Source: Undaria pinnatifida
Lineage: Eukaryota; Sar; Phaeophyceae; Laminariales; Alariaceae
NCBI GenBank assembly: GCA_012845835.1
Contig: JABAKD010000017.1
Location: forward strand, 6,441,151 to 6,505,150
Direction: 5' to 3'
Length of the DNA stretch: 64,000 nt
This document shows positions 1,287 to 38,000 of the stretch, piece by piece (the first letter of the stretch is position 1; the number at the start of each line of letters is the position of its first letter). Below the pieces are notes generated by a model. That model was not told the origin of the DNA. It did no database searches and saw nothing but the letters and a program-made list of their open reading frames with translations. The translations under genes were made by a program, and so were the position numbers.

Positions 1287-4200
1287 GTAGGGGCGATGAC
1301 GATTGGGGTCATAAATGGGGCAATTAAACTTGCTTGTATGTTGCTATGACTCGTGGGCGATGACGAATGGCGAGATAAATGTGGCAGTTTCGTTTACGAA
1401 AACTGGATGTTACTGTTGTGCCGTGCCTGCGTTCATGTACCCTTCGTGGCGATGATGAATGCAGTGATAGATTGGCGTGTGGTTCGGTGTATGACCTTTT
1501 TTGTGTTTCAATTACGCCGCGTTTCGTGGCTTTAAGCTTTTTGTGTTCTTGTCTTTGTACGATGGCGCCTTGCACGTAACTGTATTTTCAGGCATGCGTG
1601 CATCTGTACACGCTTCCTGGCGCTGATGATAAATGGCTCGATGAAGGTGGCCATTTCACTCACTGGTATTTTGCTGTGGCTTGCCCGCGTGCATATACCC
1701 TCCGACCCGTGGGCGATGATAAATGGCGCGATAAAAAGACGTGGCGCTTACATTACATGGCTCATTTTATGGCGTGCCCGCGTTCATATACCCTTCGGCT
1801 CGTGTGACCTCCAATGCCATCTCCTGTTTTCGGAAATCTCGCGTTTTTTTTTGTTCGCCTTATCTCGTATACCGCGACTACGCCGACTTCTTCCTGTACT
1901 GTGGGACTTTCACTTGCCCGCGGTTTGCTACCGCGTGCCCGCATTGACATGCCGTTCGATCCGCGTCACCCAACAAAATTTTCCGTCTCGCGTGCTTCCC
2001 GGCTCGCCTTATGTCGTCTTGTCTCGCGTCGTCTTGCTACCCTTGCTTGCCGGTGACTTGTGCCGTAGGAGCTGTTCGACCTGATCAACCGCGACTACGC
2101 CGACTTCATCCTGGTGTCCACCAAGCTTAGCGGGGTGGGAGGCAAGGTCGCCGATCTCAAGGACCCCATGGCCAGGTGTGATTTCGAGCTTTTGCTGTTC
2201 CTCGAAGAAAAAAAAGGTGTTTGCTCCTTCACATGACCGCGCCGATGTTTTTGGGACGAAGTAAATATACTTGGTATTTCTGTACCCGTACATTTTTTTG
2301 TTTGCTGTGGTAGAAAAATTAGGGTCAAGGTAGAAACCCGAACCCTAGCCCGAACCCCAACCGAAGACTACCTCAAAACTCCTAGGCACACGGTCCTAGC
2401 TAGCGCTGCCTCGCCGCTTGCCATGCGTTCTGCAGTTCCTGAAAGCATGATGTGAAGGCCAACTTCATGATCGTGTTTTTTTTTCACGCCTTGTCTGATA
2501 CCAGGTACGTCATTACGTTTGAAAAAAAATTGTAGAGGCTACTGCCACACCCGCCCGTTACCCCACCCCACCCCGCCCCGCCTCACCCCATCCTATCCAC
2601 CACCCCCACCAATACCCACACCCGCGCCCACACCACCACCCCCACCGCTCCAAACTGTTTGCTACGTTACGTTGTGCCTTGGATCGCGCCTGATGTGTCG
2701 TGTTGTTTTTCATATTTTTTCGTCCAGTACGTCAAGAGGTTTGAAGTACCTTGGTAGCGGCTACTGCCCCACCCCATCTCACTCCACTCCACTCCACACC
2801 ACACCACACCCACCGCTCTAAAATGGTTGCTGTACTGTTCCTGTCGTCTACCCTGTAGTCGAAAGCTTAGCAGCCTCACCCTCCCCACCCTACCCCGCCC
2901 TTCGTCTCCCCCGTCACTCTCAACTGCTTCCTGTATTGCAAGCTTGCTGTCGAGGGCTTCTGGTCTGCGTGCTTCGGCGGAAATGGAGGCAATGAAGCTG
3001 GAAGCAAAGGTAGAGGAGAGGAGGGGGGTACGGGAGAGAAAGAGGTCTATCCAGCGATGCCTCAGGTATGTGCGATGCGTTGTTTTCTTTTTTTGAATTC
3101 AATCGCTTCGTTTGTGTTGGCGTGCTTTGTGTTTTTTTGTTCACGGTGTTCGGTTTTGCTTTGGTTAGCTCTGTTTTTCTTCGCTTTGAATTGCTGATTT
3201 TTGCTGTTTGGGATATTTTGCTTTTTTTGTTTTGTTTGCTGTTGTTTGTGTTTTTGCCTGCGGTGGTGTGTTGGAAACATGTATGGTATGGGTATGTACC
3301 GGAGGAGGGGAGGAGGGCAAGGAAGAGGTAAGATATCTACCCAGCGATGCCTGAGGTGTGTACGATGCATCGTTAGCTCTGTTAGTTTTTTTTTGTGTGT
3401 GTGTTTTTGTGCTTTGTTGGCCCCGTCCGCCTGTGCTAAATACGTTCGTTGGGAAACTGACAATATCAAACATCTCGCGATTGTCATCAAAACGCCTCCT
3501 CGTTTGTTTTTGCTTTAGGTTTATGTCGACGCTCGAAACCGCAGAAGGCGTTCTTGGGATCAGCGACAGGGGTAAAGACCGCCTGGAGGATGAGATGGAT
3601 GATGATGTCGGGACTGCCGGCGTCGAACAGGGTTTTGACAGCGCGGTCGGTAGAGCGTTTTGGGATATGGACGAGGAAGACGAGGTTTGTGCATTGTTGT
3701 CCGCTTTATGTTCTGTTCTTGTCTGGTGCTGGTTTGAACTGTGAGGGTATGGGCTGTTTGTTCGTTTTGTGTTTTTTATTTAATTAGGGCTTGTTTGAGT
3801 GTGGACCTAGGGGTATGTAACTCCCGGTCGCCCCGGTGGCGTATCAGATTATCCTCAAACCTGGTATAGGTCAGTTTCGTGAGGTCGAGCCCCCCCGAGT
3901 GCATACTCGTATGAATTCGTGGGGACTTTTTCTTGTGCACAAATTGACATGCGGAAAACGCGAGAGGGTGAGTTAGCAACACTCGATGAAAAATCGACGA
4001 GCAATGGGATTGCTGAACCCTCTGCGCGATAAAAATTGAAGGCAAGAACCGGGGGGGGGAAGAGACGACACCTGTGACCACGGCTTATCCGGAAGCTGGA
4101 AAGTAGATTTGTGCAAAGAAAAAAAAAAGCTTCCACGTTTGTGTTTCTGTGTATTGTACGGGTATGCGTCCATCGTGTTTGTGTTTGTATGTGGTAGTGT

Positions 4201-7200
4201 GTATTATTTTGTGTTGCCTGTGGTTTGTGCGTCTACGAAGAAGTTTATGTTTGTTGTTACCAGGTATCACATTAACTCGCATACCCAAGTCCGTGGTCAC
4301 AGGACACGCTCGGGTCATCCTGGAGTGGAAGAATACCCAAGGAAAACAATAAAACATATCAAAAGTGGTACACGTATCTATCATATCATAGCTGAAGCAA
4401 CTCGCACATCCGCCACAAAAAAGACAAGAATGAAATCGGAAGTCAGCGTGCGTAAATACCAGGCCCATACAGGTACATACGTTCAAGACTCGCGGCTGAA
4501 ACCGACTACAGCGCATGCCAACAAGGAAACCAAGTAATTCACGATTTCTTTATTATGTATTCATTTATTGCAATAATGATGACAACAATAGTGGATGCTT
4601 TATTATTTACTCGATGTAGTACATCAGCAGTAACCTGTATGTTTCCTATCACGTTAATCTATTGACCAGTTCACTGCAGGATTAGTGATAATTATTACTA
4701 TTGATTAGATTTTGACTCGTTGATAACTTTCTAAAAACGAGCGACCGGTGTATTGCGCAGCTTGCCAAGATGAGTGTCGACTCTAAATTTGTCGAACTCG
4801 CTGCTGACGCTGTTAGAATAAGTTTATAATATGTGTGCCTGTGTGTATGTATGCGCAGATACTTGTCAATGATTTTGGCGCGTGCATTTGTGTAATTTTC
4901 CTGTCTCATGATGTTTGTATCTGAATAGTTCATTATATCAAGACTTTTCACGGGTCATGATCCGGCCCGCGGGTCGGTCAGAGGTATTTCAAAAACTCGC
5001 GGGTCGAGTCGGGTCGGATCTGACGGTGTTGGACATCTCACGGCTCGGGTCGGGTCGGGTCAGGAGGTTTTCAGATGTCACGTGTCGGGCCGGTTCACCC
5101 TGAAAAACCCTAGTTTTTATGAGGTGTGCGTCCATGATTTTTTGGCGTCTGTATTTGTTTGTGTGTGTAATTTATTATGAGGGAATAGCAAAGGCGAGTT
5201 GCTGAATTTCATGGCGCCAAACAGAAAAAGGACTCCTTTCGAAATCGCTGTTGCCTTCATCTCCATTAGATATCCGTACCGCCCATGCAACCGCGATTTC
5301 AATCTTTTTTGTGCTTGCCAGCAACTTTTTGTATACCCTGCAGTAATACGTAGAATAACAGTACGTTTCACAGCACCAACTCCGATTTTAAAGTCTCCAC
5401 TCTCCTCTGAATATATTACGAAAGACGCAACGAGATAACGGGTACCATGGAGACACGTGAAGACCGAAACACATTCGAGTATAGCATTTATATCGTTCGA
5501 GGAGCAGTGTATGGGAACAGTATATACCCGCTCGCATCGAAGGTTAGGTTATTCTTTGTCGTGGTGGACCTACAGCCGCGTACGGATTGCGCTAACACAA
5601 GCACCCAAATGCACACACCCGCCTCGTCGTGGTGGTGGTCCTATAATCATTTCACTACTGGTTGCTCTTTGTGCAGGGTTTCGATGACCCCGACCTCCTG
5701 GAGGCGTTTCCTGGGCTTGCCGTTGCCGCGGTGGAGAGCGAACCTCACGCAAATAGGGGGCCTGCGCCGGCCCAGGGGGGAGCTGGTGACGGAGGGGGGG
5801 GGCAGGAAGGGGAAGAAGAGGAGGGGCTTAAGGCGGCTTCCCAAGCGGAGGCGGAGTGCGCGCTGTTGGAGCGGGCGGCACACTATGCCCTCATGATGAA
5901 CGCCGACTTGCAGGTATGGAAACCCTTCCCGGATATATATATATATAAATATATGTTTACTTATTTGTGTTTAGCCCCTTTCGGGGGCGTCATTTATTGT
6001 TGGTCGTTTGGAAGTAAGGACCGTTGGTTAATAATGGTCAAGAGTCGCCGGGTATTTGTATCTGGCTTTTCGTCCATTCAGCATTTGTTTTTTCACGAGG
6101 TTTTAAGAGCGTTTGGCTTCTGCTATTTAATCTACAAAAAAGAAGTCCTGCTATAGTGCTGTAGATTTACGAGGCATGTGATAGTCGCCCTGCGAATGTA
6201 TCATATATAATGCGGCCAAACGAGCTGACACTGACCTTTTTCTTTTTTTTGCTGTTTACGACAGGCGGCCGCCGAAGACGAAGCGAGCGGATCCGGCGAC
6301 GCCGACGCAACGTCCCTCGTTAGGGGCCTGTCCTCCAGAGCATCCCGCGTGGAAGCCGAAATCACTCGCCGGCTCCGCTCCGAGTTCGCCTCCTTACTCA
6401 AGCCAAGACAGGAGTGGGTGTTCGGGACGGCCATGGCGCCTGAATCAGGAGGATTAAAGGGCAGTTTTAAGTCGGGAGTGGGGGGGACGGCGGAAGGGGT
6501 GACGGGGGTGGGGGTGGGGGTGGGGGTGGGGGGGGCGTTTAAAGAGAAGAGGCGACAGGCGCTGCTGAGCTGTCTGAGACCTTTCTCGGCGTTGGGGAGC
6601 GGGATTGAGGCGGAGAAGCAGTTTGCCAGGTGAGGTCGTTTTTGGGGGGCTTGATCTCTTTTCAACTGGAATCCATTTTTTGGGTTGAATTACTTGGAAT
6701 TGGTATAGGAAGCGGTTTGGGGGACGTGTGCTGAGTTAGGTTAGGTTGGGTTGGGACCGACCGACAGCTAGCTTGGGGTGGACGACCCGACGCGTTTGTA
6801 GTTTTGTGTGTTATTTATTTTCTCATTATCATGCGTCTCATACGTGCCGCGGTTGATCCGAGCTTTCTTCTCTTTCAGTTTTGTTTCTGCTGTACATCAT
6901 GGCAGGGCTATAGACACGAGGCTCATCTTGCATCTCGTTTTGTACGCGCAGCCGTCGACACACTCTTTTCTCTCTTTGTTACCTGCTTCTATACCTTGGC
7001 AGGGCTATGGTCCAACCCTGCCTAGACTCGAGATTCAACATGCGTCTCGTATTGTGCGTGCAGTTAGTGACCCGCGAACGATCTCTTTCGCTCTCTAGTA
7101 TCCGCTTCTACTTGGTTACATTGTCCGGGCTATGATACTCTGAACACCTTCAGAGTAGGCGTGGTATTACACCAGGGTATTTTCAAGGTGTTGTTATATG

Positions 7201-13200: not shown

Positions 13201-16200
13201 ATTCCATTGAGTTGTACCGACTCGCGCGACCGCGGGCCCGGTGGTATCAGCTCCGAGGACTTCCCCTCGTGAGCTCGGAGTGCGTTTGTCCACAATGCAA
13301 TAGTTCGTTCGTTATCGCAGGGGGAATTGACATGACATCGGCCATGGACCTTCCCGTTTGTTTCTCAAGATCTCAAGAGCTCACAAGAAACGCCAATAAT
13401 GACAATTGAACTCCCTGACAAAATGTATCCAACCATTGTACGGTAAAATGCCCAATGATTCGACCACAGCGGTACAAAATCTTGTGTGTGTGTGTGTTTT
13501 TTTTTTGTTTTTGGTGCATCCTTTAGTTATCCTATGCTAGGCCGCGAGACATATCAGCGCGTCTGGAAGCCCGCTCTCAGCATCCCAGGTGTTATTCGGT
13601 TTCTGTTTGATGCATTGTTTGTGGCGTCTCTCTGGGGTGTGGAAAATAATAACTAAGTAGTAGTTATATTTCAAATTCAAATTGTTTGCAGCCGTCAACG
13701 GCAATTCCCTCTCAACAGCCAGCAATTGGCCAACTTCAAAAGTAAAAGTACAAAGAAGAAGTTGCTGAAAAAGCAAAATAAAAATATCAGAGAGCAAGCA
13801 GTAAAGATCAGAGAATGAGAGCTAAAAAGTAAGTAAGAATGAGACTAGGGAAAGCAAGGAAGGCAAGGAACTTCGGGACGGTTCTTTTTCCCAGCAACTA
13901 ATTTTCTTTTCGGCAATTACGGGCTGAGAAGGACTGAAAGGGGGGAGGATATGCCGAGCGAGACGTCCGAGGGGGGCGAGGTCTAGGTATATAGTTTTAT
14001 GTCGGTGCTAAGTTGTACTGGAAGATTACGTATGCAGGATGTAGCGCCCCACATCTTGTTTTTGCCGGTACAGTGGTTTTCTCAACTCGGCGGTCTTATC
14101 TGCAGTGGGAATTGCGTAGCATAGCTCAGTGACGCTTCCTACGATAGAGGTATAACATTTTTTGGCAGTCGTTTTTGTAAATGACGGGGCTCCTTAACCC
14201 AAAATCGTCGGAAATAGGCCGTTCATTATTGCCTGGTAAGGTGGGTATTTTTTTTTACCTAGGACATGGGTGTGGTCATCGGGCTGTAGTTTCAGTTTTG
14301 CTGGAAATTAGTTTTCGGCTGAGAAGGCAATGAGCTCTCCTTAATAGGTTATGAGCCTCAGAAAATATTGCGCGCACGTTCCCGTAGCATGTGTATGTTA
14401 GCATAGGCGGGGTGGGTGTATTCCGATTTGGTCGCTCTTAGGCCCCTAATGTTCTAATCTTGAGCTCTCTTAATCTGGGATATCCAACGTTTTTTTTTTT
14501 TCCCTCCTTCACCCGTGTTTTACCTAGATCACGAGAGATATCAACGCGTCTGGAAGCCGCGCTCAGCTCCGCGGGAGGGGGTCCTGACGCCGGTGTGGCA
14601 GAGGCGGAGGAAGAGGCTGGGTATCAGGGCCCGGCGTTCGAGCAGCTCGTGTTCCGAGAGACGTGGCGATGCCTCATGCAGTGCTGGGACGATGAGGTGA
14701 AGTGTTTGTTTTTCTCGGCGAGGCAGCCAACCCACCGTACCAGATCAAACAGTGTGCTCACAACCTCGGGCACGTGCATGAAAACATGGCCATATGGAAC
14801 ACTACTTGACTGCGAAAAGCTAGTGATTTGGGTGGGCGCGGTCTTGCCTGGTGTAGTGCTGGCGAAGTGCTGCCGATGCCTACTGCTGTGATGTTTCTCG
14901 CCGTCACCAAGTAACTGTAGCGTTGCACACGTTGGCGGGATAGTAACCGTTGGAGCATATACGGTAGTGTTCTTGGAGGCGTAGCGTTGCCTGACGCAGT
15001 GCTGGAATGATGAGGTGATTGTGCCACCACTGCCTAGTTACTAAGTGTTTCTCGCCGTCACGAACGAACTGTAGATTGCACATATCGGATGGATAATGTT
15101 CGATCAAACAACCAGTGTTCCCGAGAGGCGTAATGTTGCCTTATGCAGTGCTGGGACGATGACATGAACTGTTTGTGTTTTCACGGCGTCATCAACCAGC
15201 CGTGGCGTTGCTGCTCACGCCCAACAGATGGCGACCTGTGTGGCCCATGGCTAGATCGTACGGATCAGCGGGTTGGGACATATGCACAGATCCGAGAGGC
15301 GTGGCATTGCCTGGTGCAGTGCTGGGATGACGTGGTGCAGTGTTCGTGTTGTCGACGTCAATATCCAAACGTAGAGTGGCACATTTTCTGTCTAGCCTAG
15401 ATCGTAAAGATCAGAGCGACCCGTGCATAGATCGTGCATGGGCAGCTGGATAGGTCCGAGAGGCCTTGGTGTCTGACGCCGTGTTGGGATGGTGAGGTGA
15501 AGTATTTGTGTTATCTCGGCGTCACCAACCAATCCACACTGCAGGTTCGGTTCTTCCGAGGTTGGCTCGTCGCTTGTTGAGGATGTCCCGTCGCGTCTTC
15601 GGGCATGCTATGACCCGTGCTGACATATGGATTCCTCTATCTATTATAACATCAATCGACGCTGCGAGTGTTTTTGCCGTGGCTGGCTCACGGCTTATTG
15701 AAGCTGTCCTTCCAGGGGGTGAGGCATACCCGATCCTACCTCACGATCTACCCGTTTCGGGGCAGACGTATTCCTTTTTCGCGCCACATGTTACGACAAA
15801 GGTGCACAAGTTTTTTTGACCTGAAGCTCCTCGCTTGACGATGTCTATCCCTCACCCAGGAGCTTATGTGGGGTAAGCTGGAATGGCAACCAGATGACCA
15901 AATCCGTGGCCTAGCCATCGGAAATGTTTGCATCTATGCGAAACAGGAATTCAATTCCGACGATTTTGTTAATAGGTTAAGGAGCCCCGTCAATCAGAAA
16001 ATACGCCCTTACAACTGGAAACCCGTGTTCAGGGACATATTCCTTGAAATTGGTATTGGGAACTATTTTGGGGCTCTAGAAGGGTTAAGGAGCCCCGTCA
16101 ATACAAAAATATGTGCGCCAAAAAGGGGTATACCTTAATACATCTATCGTAGCACGCGTCTCATGAAGGTCCTGACCTGTCCGAAGTGTGGGTTTTCCAC

Positions 16201-22200: not shown

Positions 22201-24097
22201 CTAACCCAAGGCCAACCAGCCCGCGCGAAAGAAGTAAGTTAGAACATTTGAAATACAAACGGCACCACAGGAAAACGTGTGCCTTGACCGAGTTTTTTGC
22301 TGACTTTACTTGGGTTGGGTGGGCCTTGGATTGTGGCGTTCGACGGTTTCAATACTATTCTTAATATATGCTTCTACCCAACTCCTGCGTAACCAAACTT
22401 GGTTGCATCGCACATACCCTGCTTGTAACCGTGAAGCAGACGGAAAACACCCTCAGCTCGCAGCGCTCTTGCGCCGCAAAATGTCACGTTGTGTCTACCA
22501 AATTTCATACCAACTCTTTCCCACTTATTTATGATAAGGCTACTGCCCCCCCCCCCCCAACCCCCCCCACCCCACCCCGGTCAGATACCTATTGTGCCAG
22601 AGCTACTGCTTACCTTGATGCAGATGTAGCATATCCTCAACGCGTAGCACTCTTGTGCCGAAAAGTGTCGTTTTGCCCCTCACCCACGTCGTACCAACTA
22701 TTTCACACTTCTTTCACTGCACAAACTGCCCCCCCCCCTTGTCCAGATTCCTGAACATTGTGTCGGAGGTACTGCTATGCTAACCTTGATGCAGATCGAA
22801 AAAACCCTCAATACGCCAAAAATCGCTTTGTATCCCTGAGGCAGATGGAAAGCACCCTAAATACGCATCATGTCACTTTGTGACGTAACATCTCATGCGG
22901 CGTCTTGGTAACACTCTTCTTGCACCGCAATATGCCACCTTGTACCGAAAAAAAGTTGAGGCAACTCGTTGTTACCTGTGTCTGCCTTTCTTATTGCCAC
23001 CGCTTCCCCCCCCCGTCCGGATACCTGTAAGCTGTGTCGGAGCCACTGCTAACCTTGACGCGGATGTAAAAAATACCCTCGATTCGTAGGGCGCTCTTGT
23101 GCCGCGAAATGTCACTTTGCGCCGCACGAATGTCGTACCAACCCTTACACACTTGTTTGTATTGTGCCTACGGCCACCCCCCCCCCCCCCCCCCCCCCAA
23201 CGCCAGGTACCTTGAAATTGTGTCAGAGCTACTGCTGACCGTGCGGCAGATGGAAAATACTCTGAACAAGCGAAGGGTCACGGCGCGGAGGGGGTCGCGC
23301 GCGGGAGCCACCGACCAAGGCCCTTCGGACAAGGATAAGATCATGATGCAGGCAAGAAGGAAAATTCTTGAAAAATGTATTTTGCGGCCGGTGGTGGTGG
23401 AGGGAGAGCGTCCGTCCCCTCGTACCTGCCCGCCTGCCTGCCTGCGTGCCTGTCTGCTTGCCTGTCTGCCTGCTTGCCTGCTTGCCTGCTTGCTTGCTTG
23501 CCTGCTTGCCTACCTATCTGCCTGCATGCCTGCCTGTATGATGGTATGTATGTCGTTATGCCTGTCTGCAAGTGATAGTTGAAAATTCTTGGTAATTTCT
23601 TATTGGAAACTTCGCTGTCGGTGGGGGTGGGAGCGTCTCTGTCCTCCGTGCCTATCATAGCTTGGTGTATGTCTGCTTGTAACCGATTGTTGAAACTTGG
23701 CGTGAATTTCGTAATATCTAGGAAATTTCGCTGGCGGTGTCTGTGGAAAGGGCGTGTGTCTGCCGGCCTGCCTTACCGTCTGCCTGTCTGAAACCGATGA
23801 TTGAAAATTGTTGGAGTATTCGCTGTTGGTGCCGCCCTCCTTTCGACGAGAACGTTTGGGGAGTTGTTGTTGTTGTTGCTGTTGTTGAAATACTCCCGGA
23901 ACGCATGCGACCGCCCTCCCCCGCCCCTCCTGCTCTCCATGGCCACCGAACAGCTTCGACTGGACGTGCGCGAGTTCGGAAAGGAGGCCAGCCGCCTTGG
24001 TGTCGACGTCTCTTGCTTTGCCCCCTACGAACAGCTGCTGGAGGTGGTTGAAGACCGCGGCGGGGATGTTGCCCCGGGCAGCGCAACCTCGCGCTGA
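1191..24097 (+). CDS. Conserved oligomeric Golgi complex subunit 2 (COG2), 15 exons, 5' incomplete
   Basis: COG2 belongs to lobe A of the COG tethering complex, which acts on the cytosolic face of Golgi membranes in retrograde vesicle traffic. The exons are 1191-1286, 2069-2175, 2943-3065, 3519-3684, 5677-5913, 6265-6629, 7260-7380, 8333-8520, 10022-10230, 14528-14696, 16420-16559, 17649-17880, 20914-21116, 23207-23351 and 23954-24097. Phases agree at every junction except for one base lost in exon 8. The product is about 881 residues, against about 740 in human; the excess is low-complexity sequence in exons 5, 6 and 8. Family signatures are ELFDLINRDYADF (residues 33-45), SRWNLPIYFQLR (about 526-537), WRCLMQCWDDE (about 584-594), ITATYRMTNKPAPQRPSPF (about 723-741) and LRLDVREFG (about 835-843). 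The N-terminal COG2 domain and the COG2_C domain are both covered. The N-terminal exon is not found, since an in-frame stop directly precedes exon 1. Confidence 0.93.
1287..1985 (+). repeat. Degenerate tandem repeats in COG2 intron 1, donor-derived
   Basis: The block following the donor (gggcgatgacgattggggtc) recurs in decayed form near 1349, 1440, 1620 and 1709. It alternates with a 'gcccgcgttcatataccctt' block near 1425, 1590, 1685, 1775 and 1935. The period is about 90-170 bp. The intron has grown by reiteration of sequence next to its 5' splice site. Confidence 0.6.
2069..2175 (+). CDS. COG2 exon 2
   Basis: It is bounded by GCCGTAG and AG|GTGTGA, with phase 0 in and phase 2 out. It encodes the most conserved COG2 motif, ELFDLINRDYADFILVSTKL, which in homologues pairs with COG3 and COG4 in the lobe A helical bundle. 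Confidence 0.93.
2500..2942 (+). repeat. Echoes of the exon 3 acceptor region in COG2 intron 2
   Basis: A unit made of a C-rich tract, 'caccgctc(c/t)aaa' and 'gttgctgta' occurs near 2530-2690 and 2770-2850, then at 2880-2960 where it is the real acceptor of exon 3. The first two are decayed copies of the branch and pyrimidine-tract region. Confidence 0.5.
2943..3065 (+). CDS. COG2 exon 3
   Basis: It follows ATTGCAAG and ends CTCAG before GTATGT, phase 2 at both ends. It encodes about 41 highly charged helical residues (MEAMKLEAKVEERRGVRERK), matching the COG2 coiled coil that precedes the 'CLR' turn. Confidence 0.85.
3310..3435 (+). repeat. Decayed copy of the COG2 exon 3 end and donor inside intron 3
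   Basis: The last 25 bases of exon 3 plus its donor (CCAGCGATGCCTCAGGTATG, ending 3070) are echoed about 275 bp downstream as CCAGCGATGCCTGAGGTGTG, followed by a similar T/G-rich intron start. The copy keeps a GT after AG and could act as a decoy donor. Confidence 0.7.
3519..3684 (+). CDS. COG2 exon 4
   Basis: It follows TTTGCTTTAG and ends GACGAG before GTTTGT, phase 2 in and phase 0 out. FMSTLETAEGVLGI matches the COG2 segment that reads 'VSKVEKLI' or 'RSVEKIEKIL' in other eukaryotes. An acidic stretch (LEDEMDDDV) follows. Confidence 0.87.
3825..4128 (+). mobile_element. tRNA-derived SINE, copy 1
   Basis: The head resembles a tRNA, with an A-box-like CGGTGGCGTATCAG and a B-box-like GAGGTCGAGCCCC. 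The body is shared with copies at 40.2 and 59.9 kb and a fragment at 51.8 kb (cgatgaaaaatcgacgagca; cacctgtgaccacggctt). The 3' end is A-rich. It lies in COG2 intron 4. Confidence 0.8.
4262..4520 (-). repeat. Dispersed repeat family R2, copy 1
   Basis: Near 4270-4335 and 4380-4515 it matches, in inverse orientation, blocks at 41.23-41.53 and 44.88-45.12 kb. Shared blocks include 'acattaactcgcat', 'ggaagaatacccaa', 'gctgaagcaa' and 'agactcgc(g/a)gctgaaacc'. The strand given is relative to the copies at 41 and 45 kb. No coding is seen. Confidence 0.65.
4728..4805 (+). repeat. Dispersed repeat family E, copy 2
   Basis: It contains 'gcgcagcttgccaagatgag', then 'gtcgactctaaatttgtcgaactcgc'. It is the best-matching partner of the copies at 29.35 and 38.72 kb, which are inverted relative to it. 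Confidence 0.6.
4948..5105. repeat. Dispersed repeat family D, copy 1 (GGGTC-rich)
   Basis: It contains repeated CGGGTCGGGTC and 'cgcgggtcgagtcgggtcgg' blocks with 'aggaggttttcagat'. The same arrangement occurs at 7.96-8.19 and 25.06-25.24 kb. Copies start or end near CTTTTCACGGGTC or its complement, so terminal inverted repeats are possible. Confidence 0.6.
5677..5913 (+). CDS. COG2 exon 5
   Basis: It follows TTTGTGCAG and ends TTGCAG before GTATGG, phase 0 at both ends, 79 codons. A Gly/Glu-rich insert (about residues 195-220 of the partial protein) is followed by the helical segment CALLERAAHYALMMNADLQ, typical of the COG2 midregion. Confidence 0.87.
6265..6629 (+). CDS. COG2 exon 6
   Basis: It follows TTTACGACAG and ends CCAG before GTGAGG, phase 0 in and phase 2 out. 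Helices VEAEITRRLRSEFASLL and RRQALLSCLRPFSALG surround a Gly/Val repeat built from GGGGTG units. The latter matches the 'YNCLRAYAAID' region of plant COG2. Confidence 0.87.
6790..7259 (+). repeat. Tandem echoes of the exon 7 acceptor in COG2 intron 6
   Basis: The real acceptor reads CTTGACAGGGCTATAATG at 7251-7268. Near-copies with the same 'cagggctat' core are at about 6902 and 7009, and a broken one (ccgggctatga) at about 7124. Each is preceded by a 'tttctctct...ctgcttcta' tract and followed by 'atgcgtctcgta'-like sequence. Spacing is 107, 115 and 132 bp. Confidence 0.7.
7260..7380 (+). CDS. COG2 exon 7
   Basis: It follows CCTTGACAG and ends AAAGAG before GTGTGC, phase 2 in and phase 0 out. 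It encodes RAIMQPFLDARFTQGALDGG and LGPLLDELIAYVKE, matching 'VVAPFIQKII...' and its following helix in COG2. The upstream intron contains decoy copies of this acceptor. Confidence 0.88.
7400..7560. repeat. Dispersed repeat family F, copy 1
   Basis: The blocks 'gaccctcgcttccctaca' and 'ccgggacggagct', then 'gttttcaccgaccaggca', recur at 42.42-42.50 kb and in part at 60.86-60.91 kb. No coding is seen. Confidence 0.5.
7960..8195. repeat. Dispersed repeat family D, copy 2
   Basis: It contains 'gacccgcgggctaggtgaga', 'ctcgcgggtcgagtcaggtcgg' split blocks and 'caggaggttttcagacatga', and ends with complementary ACCTGACCCGACGCGACC. The ends are partly self-complementary. Confidence 0.6.
8333..8520 (+). 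CDS. COG2 exon 8, with a frame break in poly-G
   Basis: It follows TTTTTTTCAG and ends CAGCAG before GTACCG. The first half reads VAGDAVEFAEEMFATPADL in phase 0. The last part (PVDLVCNGVWKPVQQ) matches the conserved 'DFLANAVWPEV' motif but is in another frame. The shift falls in the G run at 8431-8456. The exon is 188 bp, and one extra base makes every downstream phase fit. This is probably a homopolymer-length error or polymorphism. Confidence 0.85.
9015..10010 (+). repeat. Nine-copy tandem array with a palindromic core in COG2 intron 8
   Basis: A unit of about 85-115 bp containing the near-perfect palindrome CCCGCACTATCCCGGGATAG, then TGGGGTACTCTGTAGGACAG and ACACGCGATTTGAACCGCAC, repeats at about 9041, 9156, 9263, 9376, 9486, 9583, 9695, 9777 and 9887. 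The last copy ends just before the exon 9 acceptor. Confidence 0.88.
10022..10230 (+). CDS. COG2 exon 9
   Basis: It follows TTGGTGGCAG and ends TTAAG before GTGGGC, phase 0 in and phase 2 out. It encodes NYALCMAFLERLAG and EFKSRWNLPIYFQLR, the diagnostic 'KWNLPVYFQIRF' block of COG2. Confidence 0.93.
10564..10827 (-). pseudogene. Chromodomain at the truncated integrase end of the chromovirus
   Basis: The frame holds FVVKVTWEGPEEAESTWEPV, the aromatic and acidic core of a chromodomain, followed by a basic helix. This domain normally closes the integrase of chromoviruses and targets insertion to chromatin. Here the integrase core upstream of it is missing. Confidence 0.75.
11278..13293 (-). 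pseudogene. gag-pro remnant of the chromovirus
   Basis: One reading frame runs from 13293 to 11278, interrupted by three in-frame stops (near 12676-12678, 12082-12084 and about 11950). The N-terminal part is charged and capsid-like (FEDMREFLVAYSEYKGRL; EEEIMQGLKIFAG). The zinc knuckle is at about 12150. The aspartic protease shows D-S-G-S-S as the catalytic triad. After the protease the homologous frame continues in another phase (10992-11291, DVMAQLKASVL) and then stops. Confidence 0.8.
13300..14130. other. Intron 9 sequence without recognised content
   Basis: AT-rich sequence with short poly-T and a (TG)n run at about 13482. No gene, LTR or repeat-family member was recognised. Confidence 0.4.
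14131..14395 (+). mobile_element. MITE-A copy 1
   Basis: It starts at CTTCCTACGATAGAGGTA and ends at CCGTAGCATGTGT, with the internal MITE-A landmarks 'ggggctccttaacccaaaat', 'cgtcggaaataggc' and 'cctagg(a/c)catggg'. No coding capacity. It lies in COG2 intron 9. Confidence 0.75.
14528..14696 (+). CDS. COG2 exon 10
   Basis: It follows TTTTACCTAG and ends GATGAG before GTGAAG, phase 2 in and phase 0 out. It encodes REISTRLEAALSSAGGG and VFRETWRCLMQCWDDE, equivalent to 'FQEIAGALDSAL' and 'CLRSCWKEDV' in plant COG2. Confidence 0.92.
14840..15530 (+). repeat. Echoes of the exon 10 end and its donor in COG2 intron 10
   Basis: The junction block TGCCTCATGCAGTGCTGGGA / CGATGAG|GTGAAGTGTTTG recurs in decayed form near 14850, 14990, 15140, 15310 and 15470. 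One copy reads TGCCTTATGCAGTGCTGGGA with a GACGATGACATGAACTG follow-on. Each is followed by a 'tttctcgccgtcac'-like segment. The period is about 150-170 bp. Confidence 0.85.
15536..15870 (+). repeat. Echoes of the exon 11 start in COG2 intron 10
   Basis: The exon 11 acceptor and start (CATGCAGGTGTTTCTTCCGT, then GCCTGGCCCACCGCTTTTTG) are echoed at about 15538 (ACTGCAGGTTCGGTTCTTCC; TTGGCTCGTCGCTTGTTGAG), 15675 (GTGTTTTTGCCGTGGCTGGC; TCACGGCTTATTGAAGCTGT) and weakly at about 15803. A further faint copy is near 16200. They precede the genuine exon and are out of frame or lack good acceptors. Confidence 0.75.
15866..16165 (-). mobile_element. MITE-A remnant (copy 2) with a family G block
   Basis: It ends with CTATCGTAGCACGCGTCTC and holds two 'ggttaaggagccccgtcaat' blocks around an 85-bp family G unit (caactggaaacccgtgttc ... 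ttttggggctctagaagggtt). It is truncated and rearranged. Confidence 0.6.
16420..16559 (+). CDS. COG2 exon 11
   Basis: It follows ATCCATGCAG and ends ...GACAT before GTAAGC, phase 0 in and phase 2 out. VFLPCLAHRFLRLSLQ is the counterpart of 'VFLPLLVHRLWRLTLQ'-type COG2 sequence. DDIVPIAASLD continues into exon 12. Confidence 0.92.
16686..16896 (+). mobile_element. Small TIR element with internal tandem units in COG2 intron 11
   Basis: The ends TGTGTTCGGTACGGTACC and GGTACGGACCGTACCAAACACA are inverted repeats. Inside, a unit of about 57 bp (attgatgtcgtaccgaactt, accgaagtgtccggt) repeats about three times. The TIR begins like some hAT elements, but no target duplication was seen. It has no coding capacity. 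Confidence 0.6.
17027..17110 (+). repeat. Dispersed repeat family G copy
   Basis: The 'caactggaaacccgttgtgg', 'attacttggaattcgtatg' and 'ctcctaaacgggttaagg' blocks recur, direct or inverted, near 6.67, 16.01, 17.48-17.57, 27.53-27.62, 29.53-29.61, 49.15 and 49.75 kb. The element is about 90 bp. Confidence 0.6.
17484..17570 (-). repeat. Dispersed repeat family G copy (inverted)
   Basis: It reads 'aacccctttagagccccaaa' through 'ttttccagttgtagagagggg', the reverse complement of the unit at 17.03 kb. Together the two form a loose inverted pair within intron 11. Confidence 0.6.
17649..17880 (+). CDS. COG2 exon 12
   Basis: It follows GTACTTGAG and ends CTTCAG before GTGTGT, phase 2 in and phase 0 out. 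It encodes FLRALKTDFVAVAAGQI and an alanine-rich helical stretch ending QVAGQCKAILQ. The acceptor lacks a strong pyrimidine tract; it was chosen because it restores frame and homology. Confidence 0.82.
17938..18345 (+). repeat. Family C copy 2, split by a MITE-A insertion
   Basis: The family C head (CTCCGGCAGATGGGGAAAGT...) runs to about 17997. After an interruption the C body resumes at about 18252 (GTCGATTTAACTCAAGTGTA). The intervening sequence is MITE-A copy 3, so the C element predates that insertion. Confidence 0.7.
17998..18251 (-). mobile_element. MITE-A copy 3, nested in family C
   Basis: It runs from ACGCGTGCTGCGATAGAGG to CCTCTATTGTAGCACGAGTC, with internal 'cccatggtctaggtacacaa' and 'tcaaggagccccgtcattca'. 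The terminal 80 bases are nearly identical to the element at 49.46-49.71 kb, suggesting recent common origin. Confidence 0.8.
18360..18720 (+). repeat. Degenerate CCGTTA/CCGTTG hexamer array
   Basis: Imperfect 'ccgttaccgttgc' and 'gttacctccaccgttaccg' repeats fill the interval. Similar arrays are at 19.90-20.19 and 20.62-20.87 kb in the same intron. All three lie next to family C or MITE sequence. Confidence 0.75.
18897..19192 (+). mobile_element. MITE-B copy 1
   Basis: It is bounded by inverted GAGTCATCCCGC and GGGATGACTC, with 'gcagcagaagtttctgagct', 'cctcacccgaaacatgactt' and 'ccgatagttccacactggag'. Shared with copies at 21.8, 31.34 and 63.51 kb. No ORF. Confidence 0.75.
19194..19352 (+). 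repeat. Tandem duplication (about 90-bp unit)
   Basis: 'gttggctggaagccatttgg' followed by a 'gcactgat(g/a)a' end occurs twice, at 19203 and 19292. The two copies differ at a few positions. Confidence 0.7.
19444..19692 (+). mobile_element. MITE-A copy 4 (complete)
   Basis: Ends GACGTATGCTACGATAGAGG and CTCTATCGTAGCGCGCGTCC are inverted repeats. The interior has 'tgatggggctccttaacgca' and 'acctaggccatgggatgttt'. About 250 bp, no coding capacity. Confidence 0.82.
19730..19892 (-). mobile_element. MITE-A copy 5 (truncated)
   Basis: It starts at 'catgggctaggtacacaacg' and ends CCTCTATCGCAGCTTGCGTC, so it lacks one terminus. Confidence 0.65.
19900..20190 (+). repeat. CCGTTA/CCGTTG hexamer array, second block
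   Basis: It is made of degenerate 'ccgttaccgttcctgttacc' type units with insertions of 'accttcacc'. It runs directly into the poly-T that precedes family C copy 3. Confidence 0.75.
20198..20440 (+). repeat. Family C copy 3, near-identical to 38.9 kb
   Basis: From CTCCGGCGGATGGGGAAAAA to GACCCGGCCTGTCCCCTGA it matches the reverse complement of 38885-39122 with only a few differences over about 240 bp. This is the best-preserved pair of the family. No reading frame. Confidence 0.85.
20620..20870 (+). repeat. CCGTTA/CAGTTA hexamer array, third block
   Basis: It is made of 'ccgttacccttacggttaca' and 'cagttacagtcacagtttcc' degenerate hexamers just upstream of the exon 13 acceptor. Confidence 0.7.
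20914..21116 (+). CDS. COG2 exon 13
   Basis: It follows TTGTTTCAG and ends GCCAG before GTAGGA, phase 0 in and phase 2 out. ITATYRMTNKPAPQRPSPF is the strongest COG2_C signature; human and plant proteins have 'YRMTNKPPPTRHSPYV' type sequence here. Confidence 0.95.
21690..23110 (+). repeat. Serial decayed copies of the exon 14 start in COG2 intron 13
   Basis: The exon 14 block (GGTACCTTGAAATTGTGTCA; GAGCTACTGCTGACCGTGCG; GCAGATGGAAAATACTCTGA) is echoed near 21712, 22420 (partial), 22580, 22745, 22838 (partial) and 23018. Most copies follow a poly-C tract like the 26-C run before the true acceptor. All carry stops or frame breaks. Confidence 0.85.
21800..22053 (+). mobile_element. MITE-B copy 2
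   Basis: Ends GAGTCATCCCACGCTAGCAG and CTTACCGTGGGATGACTC are inverted repeats. The interior matches the other MITE-B copies (cacccgaaacatgactccga; aaccggtagttccacccttg). Confidence 0.8.
23207..23351 (+). CDS. COG2 exon 14, with a GC donor
   Basis: It follows a poly-C tract and CGCCAG, phase 2 in and phase 0 out. It encodes RYLEIVSELLLTVRQMENTL and SDKDKIMMQ. Homologues continue directly into 'LxLDV', encoded by the next exon, so the donor must be CAG|GCAAGA, a GC-AG intron. Confidence 0.9.
23420..23578 (+). repeat. (CCTG/CTTG)n microsatellite in COG2 intron 14
   Basis: Tetranucleotide units 'cctgcctgcctgcgtgcctg' run for about 150 bp with single-base variants, inside the GC-AG intron. Confidence 0.9.
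23954..24097 (+). CDS. COG2 exon 15, terminal
   Basis: It follows CACCGAACAG, phase 0. It encodes LRLDVREFGKEASRLGVDV, FAPYEQLLEVVED and a short tail, ending in TGA at 24095-24097. It matches the 'LFLDVQEYGRNLAALGVDA' ending of COG2. Confidence 0.93.
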   Translation, partial: LRLDVREFGKEASRLGVDVSCFAPYEQLLEVVEDRGGDVAPGSATSR

Positions 24098-25243: not shown

Positions 25244-25440
25244 CAATCTTCAGGGATGCCTCTCATACAGATGTCCGGCACCGCGTTATCACCAGCCAGG
25301 GATGACCGTCTTGCCGTGGACGTCTCTACTTTGGGCACCCCGTACGAGCAGGTGCTGCAGGTGGTTGAATACCACGCCGGGGACGCTGCCTCCGTCGGCG
25401 CGTCCTCGCGCTCATTTCTTAGGTTGGTTTAGCCGCTTAT
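25244..25440 (+). pseudogene. Decayed duplicate of COG2 terminal exon
   Basis: About 1.3 kb downstream of the COG2 stop, this segment resembles exon 15. The frame reads LAVDVSTLGTPYEQVLQVVE, then AGDAASVGASSRS, against LGVDVSCFAPYEQLLEVVED and GDVAPGSATSR in the real exon. The homology continues into sequence after the stop (TCGCGCTCATTTCTT against TCGCGCTGATTTCCT), where the stop codon itself is lost. It may lie in the COG2 3' UTR or be unexpressed. Confidence 0.8.
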
Positions 25441-28520: not shown

Positions 28521-28522
28521 CA

Positions 28523-29400: not shown

Positions 29401-29616
29401 GTTGTCAGCAAGTGGTTCATTGACTCAGGAGTCAAAACCTGATAATTTGTTTCGTTGGGGGGCAAAGACGCATGCCATATGATATGGGTCCACTGTCGGC
29501 TAAAATATTTCTGAATGGCGGGACTCCTTAATCCTTTTTAAGTCCCAAAACCCCTCCCAATACAAACATCCAAGTATCTTGTCCCCAAAAAAGGCTTTCC
29601 AGTTGTAGGTGTTGAG

Positions 29617-30003: not shown

Positions 30004-30199
30004 AACGTAAGGGCGTTAACCCATATTCGTCGGGAGCGTCATTCTTTTTTTGCGATATTAATTACGATTTATTTACCTAGGCCATGGGATTGTCCATCGC
30101 ATCCCACGTTCCATTTTTCTCCATTTTTGTATCTGGGTGAGGAGCGTAAGAAAAATGGTAATAGGACACACCTACCGTACCATGCGTGTTAAATCTATC

Positions 30200-31185: not shown

Positions 31186-31190
31186 AAAGA

Positions 31191-31680: not shown

Positions 31681-31879
31681 AAGCATACCAGGGGCACGAC
31701 TAGATCAGTACACCGAAGACCGGCACGGCAACACGCATCGTTGGCTGCAGCACAGTTACGTACGCGGTCCCCTACTGCAGCGGTCCCCTAGCCCACAATT
31801 CCACAAACAAATTCCCTAATCCACCGGTCCCCCAATGTATTTAAGCCCCTCCAACTCAAACAGAAGGAGGGCACAAGCC

Positions 31880-32041
31880 CTATCGCTTCCACCAAGAACC
31901 CTGTCGTTTCTGTTTGGCCCTCTCGAGCGACAGGCGGAGCACATTCGAAGCCACGGTCTCCGCGCTCCCCCTCGTGCGGCACTGCAGCCTCCACTGGCGA
32001 CGCGGATCGAACGGCCCTTCCCCTTTTAATTCGACCATTAC
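31880..32041 (-). CDS. STK11IP-like exon 16, terminal
   Basis: It follows TTATCCAG, phase 0, and ends in TAG (31882-31880). It encodes 53 residues: VMVELKGEGPFDPRRQWRLQ, then a C-terminal helix SNVLRLSLERAKQKRQGSW. It corresponds to the end of human STK11IP, 'LLFYDE...WALRVVC...', a PH-like strand pair and helix. Confidence 0.82.
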   Translation of the reverse strand, partial: VMVELKGEGPFDPRRQWRLQCRTRGSAETVASNVLRLSLERAKQKRQGSWWKR

Positions 32042-35000
32042 CTGGATAAATGTATGTTGGTACAGGGGAACACGGAAAGGGCCGGATTTTTATACCTAGG
32101 TCCATGTATGTTCGTACAGGGGGGCGCGTGAAGGGCACGTTTGTTGACTAGTGACTACCTGGTAAAATATACTACTGGGGAACAGGGCCGGGCCCTCCGC
32201 CTCAATGGCGGAGCGTCCATGTTTTGGAACTAAAAGAGGTCAACGGGTTACGATGCGGTACAGCACATGCCATTTACGTAAGTGGCGTTAGTCCAATCAT
32301 GGTCATATGGGGGAACACAGATGTATGAGACTTGGAAGTACAGGCTTTAAGCTGTACGTGATTACTGATCTGTGAGTTTTGTGGGCCGTTGGAGATGGAT
32401 GCAGTCCACAAGACGTAATGTAGCATAGTTGTCACTAGGAAATTTGTAACTGACGTCAACTCGTCGGCGTTGGTGATTGATGGACTGCCGTTGTGCAAAC
32501 TCAGCAGCAGCCAGCATCAGCCAGCAGCCGCAGCAGCCAGCAGCATAAGCCATCAGCAGGAGCCAGTAGCAACCAGCAGCGAAAGCTAGCAGTGAAAACC
32601 ATTAGCAGCTACTAGCAGCAGCAGCCAACAGCAGCAAACAAGGTAGCAGCCAGCAGTAGCAACAGCTACCAAAGTAGCAGCCAGCAGCAGCAGCAGACAG
32701 AGAGCAGGCAGCAGCAGGCATCATCTGGCAGCAAGTCCAGCATTAGCCAGCAAGAGCCAGCAGGGGCATCAACACACAACCGCAGGCAGTAGCAGGCAAC
32801 AGAAAGCGGCAAAGCCAGTACCATCTAGTACCAGCTAACAGGAACAGCAAAAACAGCTCGGTTCGTGCCTTTCGAAATCTCAGGAGTTTCCATCGAAAAA
32901 CGGCGCGTTTTGGTTCATTTTTAAGAATGTGAAAATGTACCCCAGTTCAGCACCGCTGTACAGGCAGCCATGATCGACCGTCCCCGCCATGGTCTTTGGT
33001 TCGTCGGCTCAAGGGTCACGGCAGATGACGACGACTGATCCAAGCATATACCACTGTCTCCGGTGCTCGCGATGACCTAAATCGACGTCCACCAAGGTGT
33101 GCAATAGTACACAAAACCCAAGCAAGGCCCCACTTTTTGTTGTTTTCAGCTCTTATAGACTAAGCTATTGACTCGTTCGGGCTGGTCGGTGTTACTTGCC
33201 TGGTTACGTGGGCCGTGGCTGGTTGTTTTTTCGTCAGGAGTTTTAGGAGTTTTGTCCCGCTTTTGGACTTAACACACCCCTCGGGATTTCAAACCAACCA
33301 CATCCCGAATAGGAAGCTTCTAGAATAGCATGATTGTGTATATACCTCCAAGTGGCTGTGGCAACGATCCGGTCCTTCGTGCGACGAACTAATGTGAGAG
33401 CAAGAATGTCAACAGCCACAACATCACGAACATCACCACCACCCCACCACCCCCACCCCCCGAACCACCTCCAACACCATCACCACCTCGCGAAAATAAA
33501 CAGTCACCTGTTCTGGAGCCAATTCCTCTTGGCGCACGGCAACAACATCCGCCAAGTCGGCAACATCCACACACACCATCTCCACAGGCCCCCCAACAAC
33601 CCCAACCCCAGCCGCAGCACCAGCCGCGTTAGCAGAGCCCTTGTCACCGGCCGGGCAACCTCCTCCTCCTCCTCCTGCCGAAGCATGGGGTCTCGCGTCC
33701 ACAAACGAAGGTCTGCGGACACGCGGATCAGCTGTCGACCAACCCCCCTCTCCGGAAAACGGGTCGGAAGCTGCTCCTCCAGGAAGGATTGAACTTGGCG
33801 GGCTTGCGGGTGACCTCGGGTTGTGCCGCGATGAGGGCGTTGACCGCGGCTGCGTTCGAAAGCGGCTGTGGTCCTCATCCATAAGTGCAAGCTGGTCTCG
33901 CAAACAAAAGCGCAGCGAGCGGGGGTATATGTATTGCATACATCAGAAAAATATGGTACTCGCGGCGGTCCTCATCCATGGAGACGAACTGCCCGTCAAA
34001 AAACGTGTAGCAGGCGGGTGAACACTTCTTAGTGCGCAAATATCAGTATGTGGAATAGACTCATGCTACGATAGAGATATTAAGGTTGCCCACTCTTAGG
34101 CCGAAACGTTTTCTGAGCCACAGGGCTCCTTCACCTGGAATCGTAGGTATGAAATCATTTTTTGGGAGAATAAAACATTGTACGCCTAGGCCATGGGATT
34201 GGTCATCGGGTGCTGTAGCAACATGGTGCGCTTCTAACGCAGCATCAGTCCATAGGTAGAAATGCGGGGTGGAATCATCAATTAATTTCCACCTTTCGAG
34301 GTAGACGAGAAAATTATGCAGTGAGTAATACTTTCTTTACGCATCAACTAGCATTTGGTTAGTCAAACACGTCTGGTATTCGGGGAAGCGACGCATTGTA
34401 TCCACCAGAAAAAATCTTCCTCGCGGCGCTTATACAGGCGGTAGAGCAGCACCGACATGGACGGGCATACCTGGCACCGATCCGAGCACATCTTACTCGC
34501 GATGCTTGTAACCCTTGTACCTCTACACAAAAGCATGCCAAACCAATTCAAAATAGAGTTATACCAAACACGTGGGTCCAGTTCTAACCGGGCTTAGGCG
34601 TAAACGAGCAACGATATGGACGGGTGAAGATAGCATCGATTGTAAAGCATCTAACTCGCAGCGTGTCAGGCGGTGGGCGAATACGAGCTACACCGGGAGG
34701 CAGGAGGAAGAACGGATGCGGTGCCAAAGAGAGGAATCTACAGGATCAAGCGCAAAGGACATGGTGCGTAGAAGGCCGGCAAACGGTGTTAACGGGGCGG
34801 AGGACGGACAAGAGAGGCCTTCTGGCGGAGAAAAATATGGATTGGAGAAAAAAAAAAACTGCACCTGCTCCTTGGTGGCGACGAGGGTACGCGGACCCAC
34901 GACCCACGGCCTCAGCTCCCACCGCTGCATCAGTAACTGGAACACCACAACAGCCCCGTCGCCGCCATCGCCGTCTGCATCTCCGACAACGTCACCTCCA

Positions 35001-38000
35001 TCAACGCCGCTACCGCCACCGCTGCCACCACCACCACCACCACCACCACCGTCACCGTCACCGGCAACACCGCCACCGCCGACACTAATGTCACCGCCAC
35101 CGCCAACGCCATCGCCACTTCCATTACCACCACTACTACCAACATCGCCATCGCCGACACCACCTCGGCTAAGCATAGACCAGGCTGTTTCGGCCGGAGA
35201 AGGAGAACTCGACCCGCCACCAGCGGTAGCAGGGGAGAACGGGAGAACGCTTGTGCCACCGCCCGTTGCGGGAAGAGCCGTTTCGCCATCCTGAGGGTGA
35301 TGCCGAACGCTGTCGCGCCCACCCTGCCCTACTAGAGGCGGCGCCGCACCCTCGTTCGCGGTCGCCGTTTCACAGCCAGCTGCCCCCCCCTGGCCCGTAG
35401 TCTCACCCCGTTGGCCCGTAGTCTCCCGCTCCTGAGCCGTAGCCTCCCCAGTGCCTTGAGGTAGATCCGAATCAGGTTCACAAGGGGGGTTCTCGGTGCC
35501 GCCACCTCTCCCTCCTTGTTTTTCGGCGGTGGTGGCGGCGGTGGCGGCTTCATCCGCCCATTTTCCGAACATTCCCAACAGTCCTCCGACCTTCGGCGGG
35601 GTCGACGGACTATTAACAACAGGCTGGCTGGAGACCCTGGTGGGCGTTCTTCTGGCGGAGGTGGGGATGCCGGGAAGGGCCTTGGCGATAGCCTGTGCAC
35701 AGATAGATACACAAAACATAAACAAAACAAATCGTTCAAAATAGAGGCAAATTGGAAAAGGTGACGTCGTGGATTTGGCTATAATAGCCTATGCGCGGAT
35801 TGAAGCACAATGCAAAATAAATAAAGGCACAAACGGGGGCGGAGCGGAGAGTATGGTTCGCGATTTTCTGCGATCGCCGATGCGCAGATAGAAACAATAA
35901 CAAGAACGAAAACCCAGCGCATAAACAGAGACAAAGCGGAGAGCGTGACTTCGTGCTAATCGGCGATAACTTGTTCACGGATTGATGAAAGGCAACATGC
36001 TTTTTTAAAGGACCTCTCACAAACACGGAGGCAGGGGGGCGGTGAGCCTGAAATCCGTGATTCACGATTTTGATTTCGATATACGCGGTATAGCCTGTTT
36101 TGACAAAAGCACCACGAAAAGCGGGAGGCGGAGCAGAGAGAGCGATTTCGTGACTCAGCGACTTCGACGCATAAAACCGACGCGCGCTTTTTGGCATCAA
36201 TGTTTCTGGCAACAATGTTTCTGGCAGACGGAGATCTCCAACCGAAGAACTACCCGATACCATTGGGACATCGTTTGTGCTTCATCGTGTTTTACATTAC
36301 TATATATAAATTCGTTTAGGGTGGCGGATACGAGCAGCCCAAGCGGGCTCGCTTCCACAGGTCCTTTTGGCCCGACTGGCTTCTTTCATTCAGACGACTA
36401 GCTTTTTGTAACTTATTGGTCCAACTAGTTTCTTGCCTTTTACAGACTTATTGACCCGACTAGCACGAGCAGCCTTCTGGCTTACTAGCCCCTTGAGTAC
36501 GCGACAGAAAACGTACGAGCATGGTCAGCAACTCTTTTCAGCTGACGTATCTGGACCTGCTGGACACCCTCTCACAACACCAACCTCGCCATCCATCATG
36601 AGGGGGAAAGCTGTTGCTCTGCTCTGCTTGCCTGCTGCTGCTGTTGGTGCTACTGCTGCCGCTCTCTGCTGCTACACAACTGCCTGTAGCTGACCGCTGC
36701 CTGGCTGTCGTGGGTGATGCGCGGGTGTGTTTTCTGTGTTGTGTTTTTGGAAGTCAGTTGGGGATTCCCAACAGAACAGAAGTGCCGGTACGTGCCACCC
36801 CAAAATACCAGTACTACTAAGGACTACTGGGAATCGAGCTATATGTTGTATATAAAGTTACAGCTCCATTCGTACGTCGTATTTTCTCGGCATTGCAGGG
36901 GAGTGGCACTTTTCAACCGGCACAAAAAAATACACGCCCGAGGAAAAACGAAAACGTTCAAGCACTAGTATGTACCCGGTACGCTTACAGCAGAGCAGCA
37001 GCAGCAGCAGCAGCAGCAGCGAAGAAAGCAAGAGATCAGCGCCCGCTGATTGACCCCTCCGTAACACACAGCACTGGGCCGCACAGGCTCGTGCGCCCAG
37101 GTGTACCTTGTTGCTCAGCGCTCTGGACTGGTGCTGCACAGCAGCAGCACGCTTCGAGACAGAAAGGCACCCCGCTCTTCTTGCTGTCTTTGTTTGGTAC
37201 GCACGACTGAACAAATGCATAATTTTTTTGTTTTTGGTCTTTTTTAAAATTTGATTTTCGGAATGTCCGCGAGCTGGTGTCCGGGGGGGGGGGGGATGTA
37301 AGTTTGTTGCTCTGGCCTGCTTGCCTACTGCCGCTGTTGTTGCTACTACTGCTGCCAATTTTCAACCGGCTCTATACCCGTTATTTGGCAGCAACAAATT
37401 ACGCGGGGAAGCACAGCATGACATGGTATTAATATTATGATAGTGCCGGTATGTGCCAGCCCAATACGCCGGCACTGCTACTATTATGCTGTTCAAGACA
37501 CCACACCACCACTTACTATTCTTAGTAGAGCGGCCATACATATTTTGCTTGTTTGAAGAGCTCCAGTCTTACTACTTTCGCCGGCATTAGGGCACAAAAC
37601 AACAGTAGGGGTGGCACTACAATATTCAACCGGCACTACTATTGGGAGTCCCCCACTGTAATGTAAGATACGCCGTATATCTTGTGTGACTGTGACTGCT
37701 GCTTCTTGCGTTTGGTGCTGCTACTACTATTCGTACGAGTACTTAAGCACTTTACTTTGTGTCATATATATACCTTCTTTTTTTATTATTTTTTCCCTCG
37801 CTTTCTCTTGCTTAAACGCCCCACCTACTATCGAAATCCGCCAGAGTAATAAACACTTCCACGCCCTGGATATCGCCTCGTTATCGTTTCAGAGCCGTCC
37901 ATGCCGCTGCTGCAATTCCCACCCACCGCCGTCCCCAACGCCCCCTCCTTCCACCCACCACCCGCACCATCGCCTAGACCTAGAACCACGCGTATAGCAA

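Follow-up and report, generated by a model that had tools for sequence, protein, structure and literature searches.

Tandem genomic duplication is among the accepted ways in which introns are gained (PMC3443670), and in a potato RdRp gene an intron was gained by a duplication that crosses an intron-exon boundary (PMC4974935). In mutually exclusive exons an exon has been duplicated together with flanking intron (PMC6071210), and a repeat survey of Ectocarpus gives tandem repeats as 3.35% of the genome, evenly spread, and introns as large, with a median of 524 bp (PMC12477816). Here we describe introns of the kelp Undaria pinnatifida, starting from the COG2 gene in a 64,000-nt stretch of contig JABAKD010000017.1 (positions 6,441,151-6,505,150; the window, numbered from its first nucleotide), that contain decayed tandem copies of the ends of their own flanking exons. 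Sequence comparison makes it very likely that these copies reflect a tandem duplication that is local and pervasive and that is tolerated over a splice site as long as the outermost site remains in use.

The kelp case has in common with intron gain by tandem duplication that coding sequence and splice sites are duplicated and that the protein would be kept through splice-site choice. It differs in that existing introns are lengthened, the AGGT-type arrangement being found in 0 of 34 introns, and in that repeated, decayed arrays, not single events, occur at about 15% of the exon edges of 15 genes. Tandem exon duplication likewise doubles exon sequence with adjacent intron, but the kelp copies hold an exon edge only (about 23–108 nt), never the whole exon (0 of 23 edges), and show no sign of being used. 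Like intronic minisatellites, the copies form head-to-tail arrays within introns, with two to seven copies, often at even spacing, at 13 of the 23 edges that have any; unlike them, the end unit of a kelp array is a coding exon edge, and most of the local direct duplication is too diverged for Tandem Repeats Finder (TRF). Minisatellite-like families are, however, defined by their arrangement and not by a tandem-repeat program. Introners are dispersed families that could add splice-site-bearing sequence to introns, whereas the kelp copies are local and specific to a junction. In the open-access literature, searched mostly by titles and the first lines of abstracts, no paper came up that describes tandem arrays across splice junctions as adding widely to the length of introns.

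COG2 has 15 exons on the + strand (window 1191-24099). After splicing, its exons 1-5, 9-11 and 12-15 give matches to Pfam COG2_N (3e-14) and COG2_C (3e-22, 4.9e-36), and the COG2 edges used as references are therefore coding. Exon 8, excluded from the Pfam search, has a frame change inside a G-rich tract (8428-8459), likely a sequencing error or polymorphism. The donor of intron 14, at 23352, is GC (GCAAGA), and this is probably a GC-AG intron.

For each intron-facing COG2 edge, at most 60 nt of exon were compared with its own intron, with 100 dinucleotide shuffles and with the 13 other COG2 introns. This exon-only test gave clear own-intron copies at 6 of 28 edges, namely the starts of exons 2, 10, 11 and 14 and the ends of exons 3 and 10, with scores of 25.5-33.5; for these edges the best shuffle reached 15.5 and the best other COG2 intron 14.5, and none of the six has a clear copy in any of those 13 introns. 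A first-pass annotation, made from the window alone, had placed junction copies at COG2 exons 1, 3, 7, 10, 11 and 14 and at exons 14-16 of a second gene. At exon level its exons 3, 10, 11 and 14 stand and the others are weak or unsupported, and its set lacked both the start of exon 2 and a copy made from the 3′ portion of the last exon.

Intron 10 holds the clearest arrays:

14635..14696, + strand: 3′ edge of exon 10, coding reference for the array; donor GT at 14697, with the COG2_C match running on into exon 11
14948..15018, + strand: copy of the exon 10 end and first intron bases, score 33.5, identity 0.80; junction at about 15013
15101..15203, + strand: copy of the exon 10 end and about 40 nt of intron, score 50.0, identity 0.80
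15291..15357, + strand: copy of the exon 10 end and intron start, score 38.5, identity 0.81
15442..15537, + strand: copy of the exon 10 end and intron start, score 39.0, identity 0.79; shares its last bases with the first exon 11 start copy
15508..15589, + strand: first copy of the intron 10 end and exon 11 start, score 30.0, identity 0.76
15654..15718, + strand: second copy of the exon 11 start, score 35.0, identity 0.77
16406..16470, + strand: 5′ edge of exon 11, coding reference; the exon begins at 16420

Measured from the junction, the exon 10 end recurs at offsets 166, 318, 466, 634 and 800, and this array runs into the two exon 11 start copies. A 48-bp GT...AG stretch (15497-15544) separates the exon 10 copy from the exon 11 copy. 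The exon 10 copies are about as similar to one another (0.65-0.83) as to the exon, and so are not independent offshoots of it. Similarity is lowest in the copy closest to the exon (0.69, with 0.75-0.81 in the others), and no gradient of decay or age with distance from the exon was seen in the arrays; a gradient with the youngest copy nearest was therefore rejected, and growth and exchange within the arrays themselves are also probable. A dispersed element that recurs in introns 10-12 and at other places in the window (15780-16165, 17021-17164, 17995-18254 and others) has its 15780-16165 copy between the last two exon 11 copies and exon 11.

Copies at the other COG2 edges are as follows:

1852..1896, + strand: copy of exon 2 nt 5-45, within intron 1; reference 2073-2113; exon-only score 25.5, reached by 0 of 100 shuffles
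3302..3417, + strand: copy of the exon 3 end and intron 3 start; reference 3013-3130; 71% identity over 119 columns; exon-only score 30.5, 0 of 100 shuffles
13496..13585, + strand: copy of the intron 9 end and exon 10 start, located some 985 bp upstream; score 34.0, identity 0.79; exon-only score 28.0, 0 of 100 shuffles
21658..21748, + strand: most distant clear copy of the intron 13 end and exon 14 start, score 26.0, identity 0.76
22426..22647, + strand: copy of the intron 13 end and exon 14 start, score 93.5, identity 0.78
22650..22819, + strand: copy of the intron 13 end and exon 14 start, score 54.0, identity 0.75
23022..23079, + strand: closest copy of the exon 14 start, score 26.5
23207..23275, + strand: 5′ edge of exon 14, coding reference, within the COG2_C match
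25306..25418, + strand: 3′ part of the last exon (nt 39-146) copied downstream of the gene, about 1.3 kb away; 77% identity over 114 columns

The array upstream of exon 14 comprises at most seven recognisable pieces.

To these we added 14 genes, taken for the protein family they belong to without selection by eye: 10 CCT/Cpn60, three myosin and one tRNA-synthetase, from genome-wide profile matches to PF00118 (57 exon matches), PF00063 (75) and PF00133 (34). In the edge counts for the 15 genes a copy is a score of at least 16, and the reverse-complemented flank serves as control; edges with flanks below 80 or 200 nt and exon ends that defied modelling were omitted. A copy was found at 11 of 94 CCT/Cpn60 edges (control 1 of 94) and at 6 of 27 edges of the four myosin and tRNA-synthetase genes (control 0 of 27), together 17 of 121 modelled edges. 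By the same measure COG2 has 7 of 30, counting its two outer edges as well as its terminal exon (control 0), and all 15 genes have 24 of 151 against 1 of 151. None of the 49-79 other-gene flanks compared with each of the 11 positive CCT edges scored as high as the edge's own flank.

The copies have a consistent structure. Exonic 40-mers have a copy in 16.4, 15.6, 10.2, 5.7, 3.1 and 1.9% of cases as their gap to the edge grows (control at most 1.1%). In 23 of 23 positive edges the exonic part of the best copy touches the exon edge or ends within about 11 nt of it, and in all 23 it is shorter than the exon. Array spacings include 83-81-80-87-83-83, 159-147-162, 166-152-148-168-166 and 508-507 bp; one CCT gene has seven exon-end copies, 80-87 bp apart, spanning 700 bp. 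On the donor side, copies run past the splice site into the intron at 0.59-0.75 identity (mean of 33 copies; the terminal exon was omitted from the continuation and splice-dinucleotide averages), and at 9 of the 23 edges the alignment of the intron sides is significant taken singly (z>4). The next exon never follows a copy (best score 8.5 at 20 testable edges); this argues against a complementary DNA (cDNA) origin, and insertion of cDNA or by reverse splicing was rejected. Edge contact, the inward fall-off, continuation into the intron as an average and the lack of both the next exon and the AGGT arrangement point to in-place tandem duplication across the junction.

The remaining repeats that the first-pass annotation had assigned to junctions are real but, at the exon level, weak or confined to the intron side:

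1348..1797, + strand: intron 1 repeats with the exon 1 edge outside them; 71% identity over 99 columns, exon-only score 8.0
6970..7048, + strand: repeat of the intron 6 end into the exon 7 start, exon part weak; score 27, identity 0.71
34436..34659, − strand: two-copy repeat (34436-34500 and 34596-34659) near putative exon 15 of the STK11IP-like gene, with provisional exon limits; 69% identity over 65 columns, score 22.0, 0 of 200 shuffles as high
35685..35998, − strand: array around the 5′ edge of STK11IP-like exon 14, each copy taking in about 8 nt of exon, from self-comparison and shuffles

The exon 1 edge is absent from the intron 1 array, its exon-only score of 8.0 being matched or beaten by 86 of 100 shuffles. 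Exon 7 scores 11.5 on exon alone (6 of 100 shuffles as high) and 27 when 150 nt of intron are added. The second gene lies on the − strand at 33-56 kb of the window; its putative name, STK11IP, and its exon numbers are those of the first-pass annotation, and no Pfam family was found in seven minus-strand open reading frames from this stretch. The repeat at its exon 14, of roughly 95-185 bp, is real: it scores 12.0 on exon alone (15 of 200 shuffles as high) and 27.0 with 60 nt of intron (0 of 200). At exon 16 there is an 18-nt match scoring 14.0 against a shuffle maximum of 13.5.

Elsewhere in COG2, intron 8 is largely filled by a long minisatellite (9006-9998, periods of about 114 and 221 bp) that touches no exon; it is the same duplication process away from junctions. 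Intron 9 carries retroelement-like open reading frames on the − strand (11278-13311), with matches to a gag-type aspartyl protease (E 0.0017) and a zinc knuckle (E 0.16), neither of which reaches the Pfam cut-off. Another dispersed element has three copies in the window, at 3825-4163 and, on the − strand, at 40141-40540 and 59861-60220 (scores 237.5 and 200 against the first). Its head looks tRNA-like by eye, ARAGORN calls no tRNA in the window, and it is possibly a short interspersed element.

We propose that segments of tens to hundreds of bases are frequently duplicated in place in the non-coding DNA of this genome, replication slippage or unequal exchange being the presumed cause. Where a segment spans a splice junction, a new copy of exon edge and splice site would land on the intron side. 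The spliceosome would keep the outermost site (the first donor or the last acceptor), leaving the protein the same and the intron one unit longer, a change we infer to be neutral. Recurrent events, or slippage and unequal exchange inside the array, could then produce two to seven copies. Duplications within exons would be purged by selection, so that intron copies would reach the exon edge, and the coding copy, being constrained, could still be recognised once the likeness between two intron copies had faded.

Several observations weigh against this proposal or limit it. Most edges have no copy (22 of 28 in the COG2 exon-only test, 127 of 150 overall). On the acceptor side, continuation into the intron is weak (0.52-0.63 identity with 13-20% gaps), and significant alignment of the intron side has been lost at 14 of 23 edges, so that a junction-spanning unit is presumed there. 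Spacing in the COG2 exon 14 array is irregular, as in some other arrays, and exon ends outside COG2 come from profile matches and splice-site scoring, not transcripts. A score of 16 is moreover an imperfect threshold: a G-rich 60-mer from the interior of exon 6 scored 20.5 against a non-adjacent intron (1 of 14 exon-interior 60-mers), and 12 of 94 CCT edges reached at least 16 somewhere in other genes' flanks (5498 comparisons). Of 1707 intron 60-mers, 42 score a hit on the reverse complement.

The proposal can be extended, at a strength we regard as tentative, to junctions as protected seeds of growth, where spanning duplications would pile up without limit because splicing hides them. Together with ordinary intron duplications they might be a main engine of large brown-algal introns, and serial near-identical sites would force the outermost-site rule. 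At 15442-15589 the donor-side and acceptor-side arrays of COG2 intron 10 meet as exon 10 copy, 48 bp and exon 11 copy, which could be the fossil of an ancestral short intron.

If instead junctions were special, with a splice site, chromatin or R-loop state provoking duplication and introns growing chiefly outward from them, edges should stand out from intron interiors. At scores of at least 16 they do not, with 23 of 150 edges (15.3%) and 252 of 1707 intron 60-mers (14.8%) having copies (p=0.81), or 14.8% of 81 edges and 13.7% of 532 intron 60-mers under a stricter low-complexity filter. Strong copies (score at least 25) are commoner at edges (18 of 150, 12.0%, against 105 of 1707, 6.2%; p=0.0096), but this is expected if one of the two copies is constrained, and arrays of at least three copies are somewhat commoner there (9 of 150 against 17 of 537, p=0.14). 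Direct-repeat coverage in 11 genes is lower beside junctions, rising from 11.4% of intron within 50 nt to 14.2% at 50-100, 17.9% at 100-200, 18.4% at 200-400 and 17.3% at 400-800 nt and falling to 6.8% beyond 800; in exons it is 10.5% within 40 nt of a junction and 5.1% beyond, and inverted repeats cover at most 1.3% in every distance class. Interiors being duplicated as often as edges, junctions are no hotspot, and we regard a special role for them as improbable.

Local direct repeats are found throughout. Self-comparison of the window gives 42 direct repeats against one inverted (score at least 25, within 1 kb) and 92 against 16 (score at least 18, within 3 kb). In five arbitrary 7-kb genome stretches, one with 217 N, direct repeats cover 2.3-42.4% and inverted ones 0-4.1%. 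Local direct duplications take up 13.5% of 142,392 non-exon gene bases and inverted ones 0.6%, and TRF calls overlap just 3.2 of the 13.5 percentage points. Low-complexity hits were removed from these repeat counts and coverages and from the 40-mer fractions. Repeats in arbitrary stretches and intron interiors alike make the process a general one in which junctions share.

That copies are kept for function, as decoy or reserve splice sites or serial splicing enhancers, is very unlikely. GT is retained in 19 of 33 donor-side and AG in 11 of 23 acceptor-side copies, and some arrays preserve the complete junction core, but per-site retention of the splice dinucleotide (0.74) is close to that of nearby positions (0.84 on the exon side, 0.66 in the next four intron bases), so that no selection for or against spare sites is seen, and the many edges lacking a copy also speak against a function.

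Tandem duplication of an exonic AGGT segment as a source of new introns, or relics of whole duplicated exons, would also leave exonic sequence inside introns, and the potato intron gained across an intron-exon boundary is a precedent (PMC4974935). Both were rejected as highly improbable: in none of 34 introns with both ends modelled does the upstream exon end recur within the last 100 nt, nor does the downstream exon start recur within the first 100 nt (score at least 14), and the copied part is a mere piece of the exon throughout.

Introner-like or other transposed elements bearing splice sites can be dismissed almost entirely, since the copies, although they hold splice sites and sit in introns, contain host exon, match other genes' flanks less well at the positive CCT edges, and in the one array searched against the whole genome (intron 10, very common words skipped) found only itself and one other match of 44 bp, hence no introner family.

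The results agree with the first-pass annotation in that copies match their own junction and are unlike introners, and the pattern reaches beyond its two genes, recurring in CCT/Cpn60, myosin and tRNA-synthetase genes. Its view that introns grow by duplication over splice sites holds insofar as junction-spanning duplications add intron length, though growth is not specifically from junction copies; that introns are built from their own junctions was overstated, given the equal duplication of intron 60-mers and the lower coverage within 50 nt of junctions.

Intron growth has so far been explained mostly by transposons. Our results suggest that local tandem duplication is, in this kelp, a steady and largely unannotated source of intron sequence, recognisable in about 13.5% of intron bases. 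Because the exon edge is a fixed reference within an array, duplications too old to be detected as neutral pairs are still visible and datable. The arrays are moreover natural series of competing splice sites, so that the choice among sites is directly testable.

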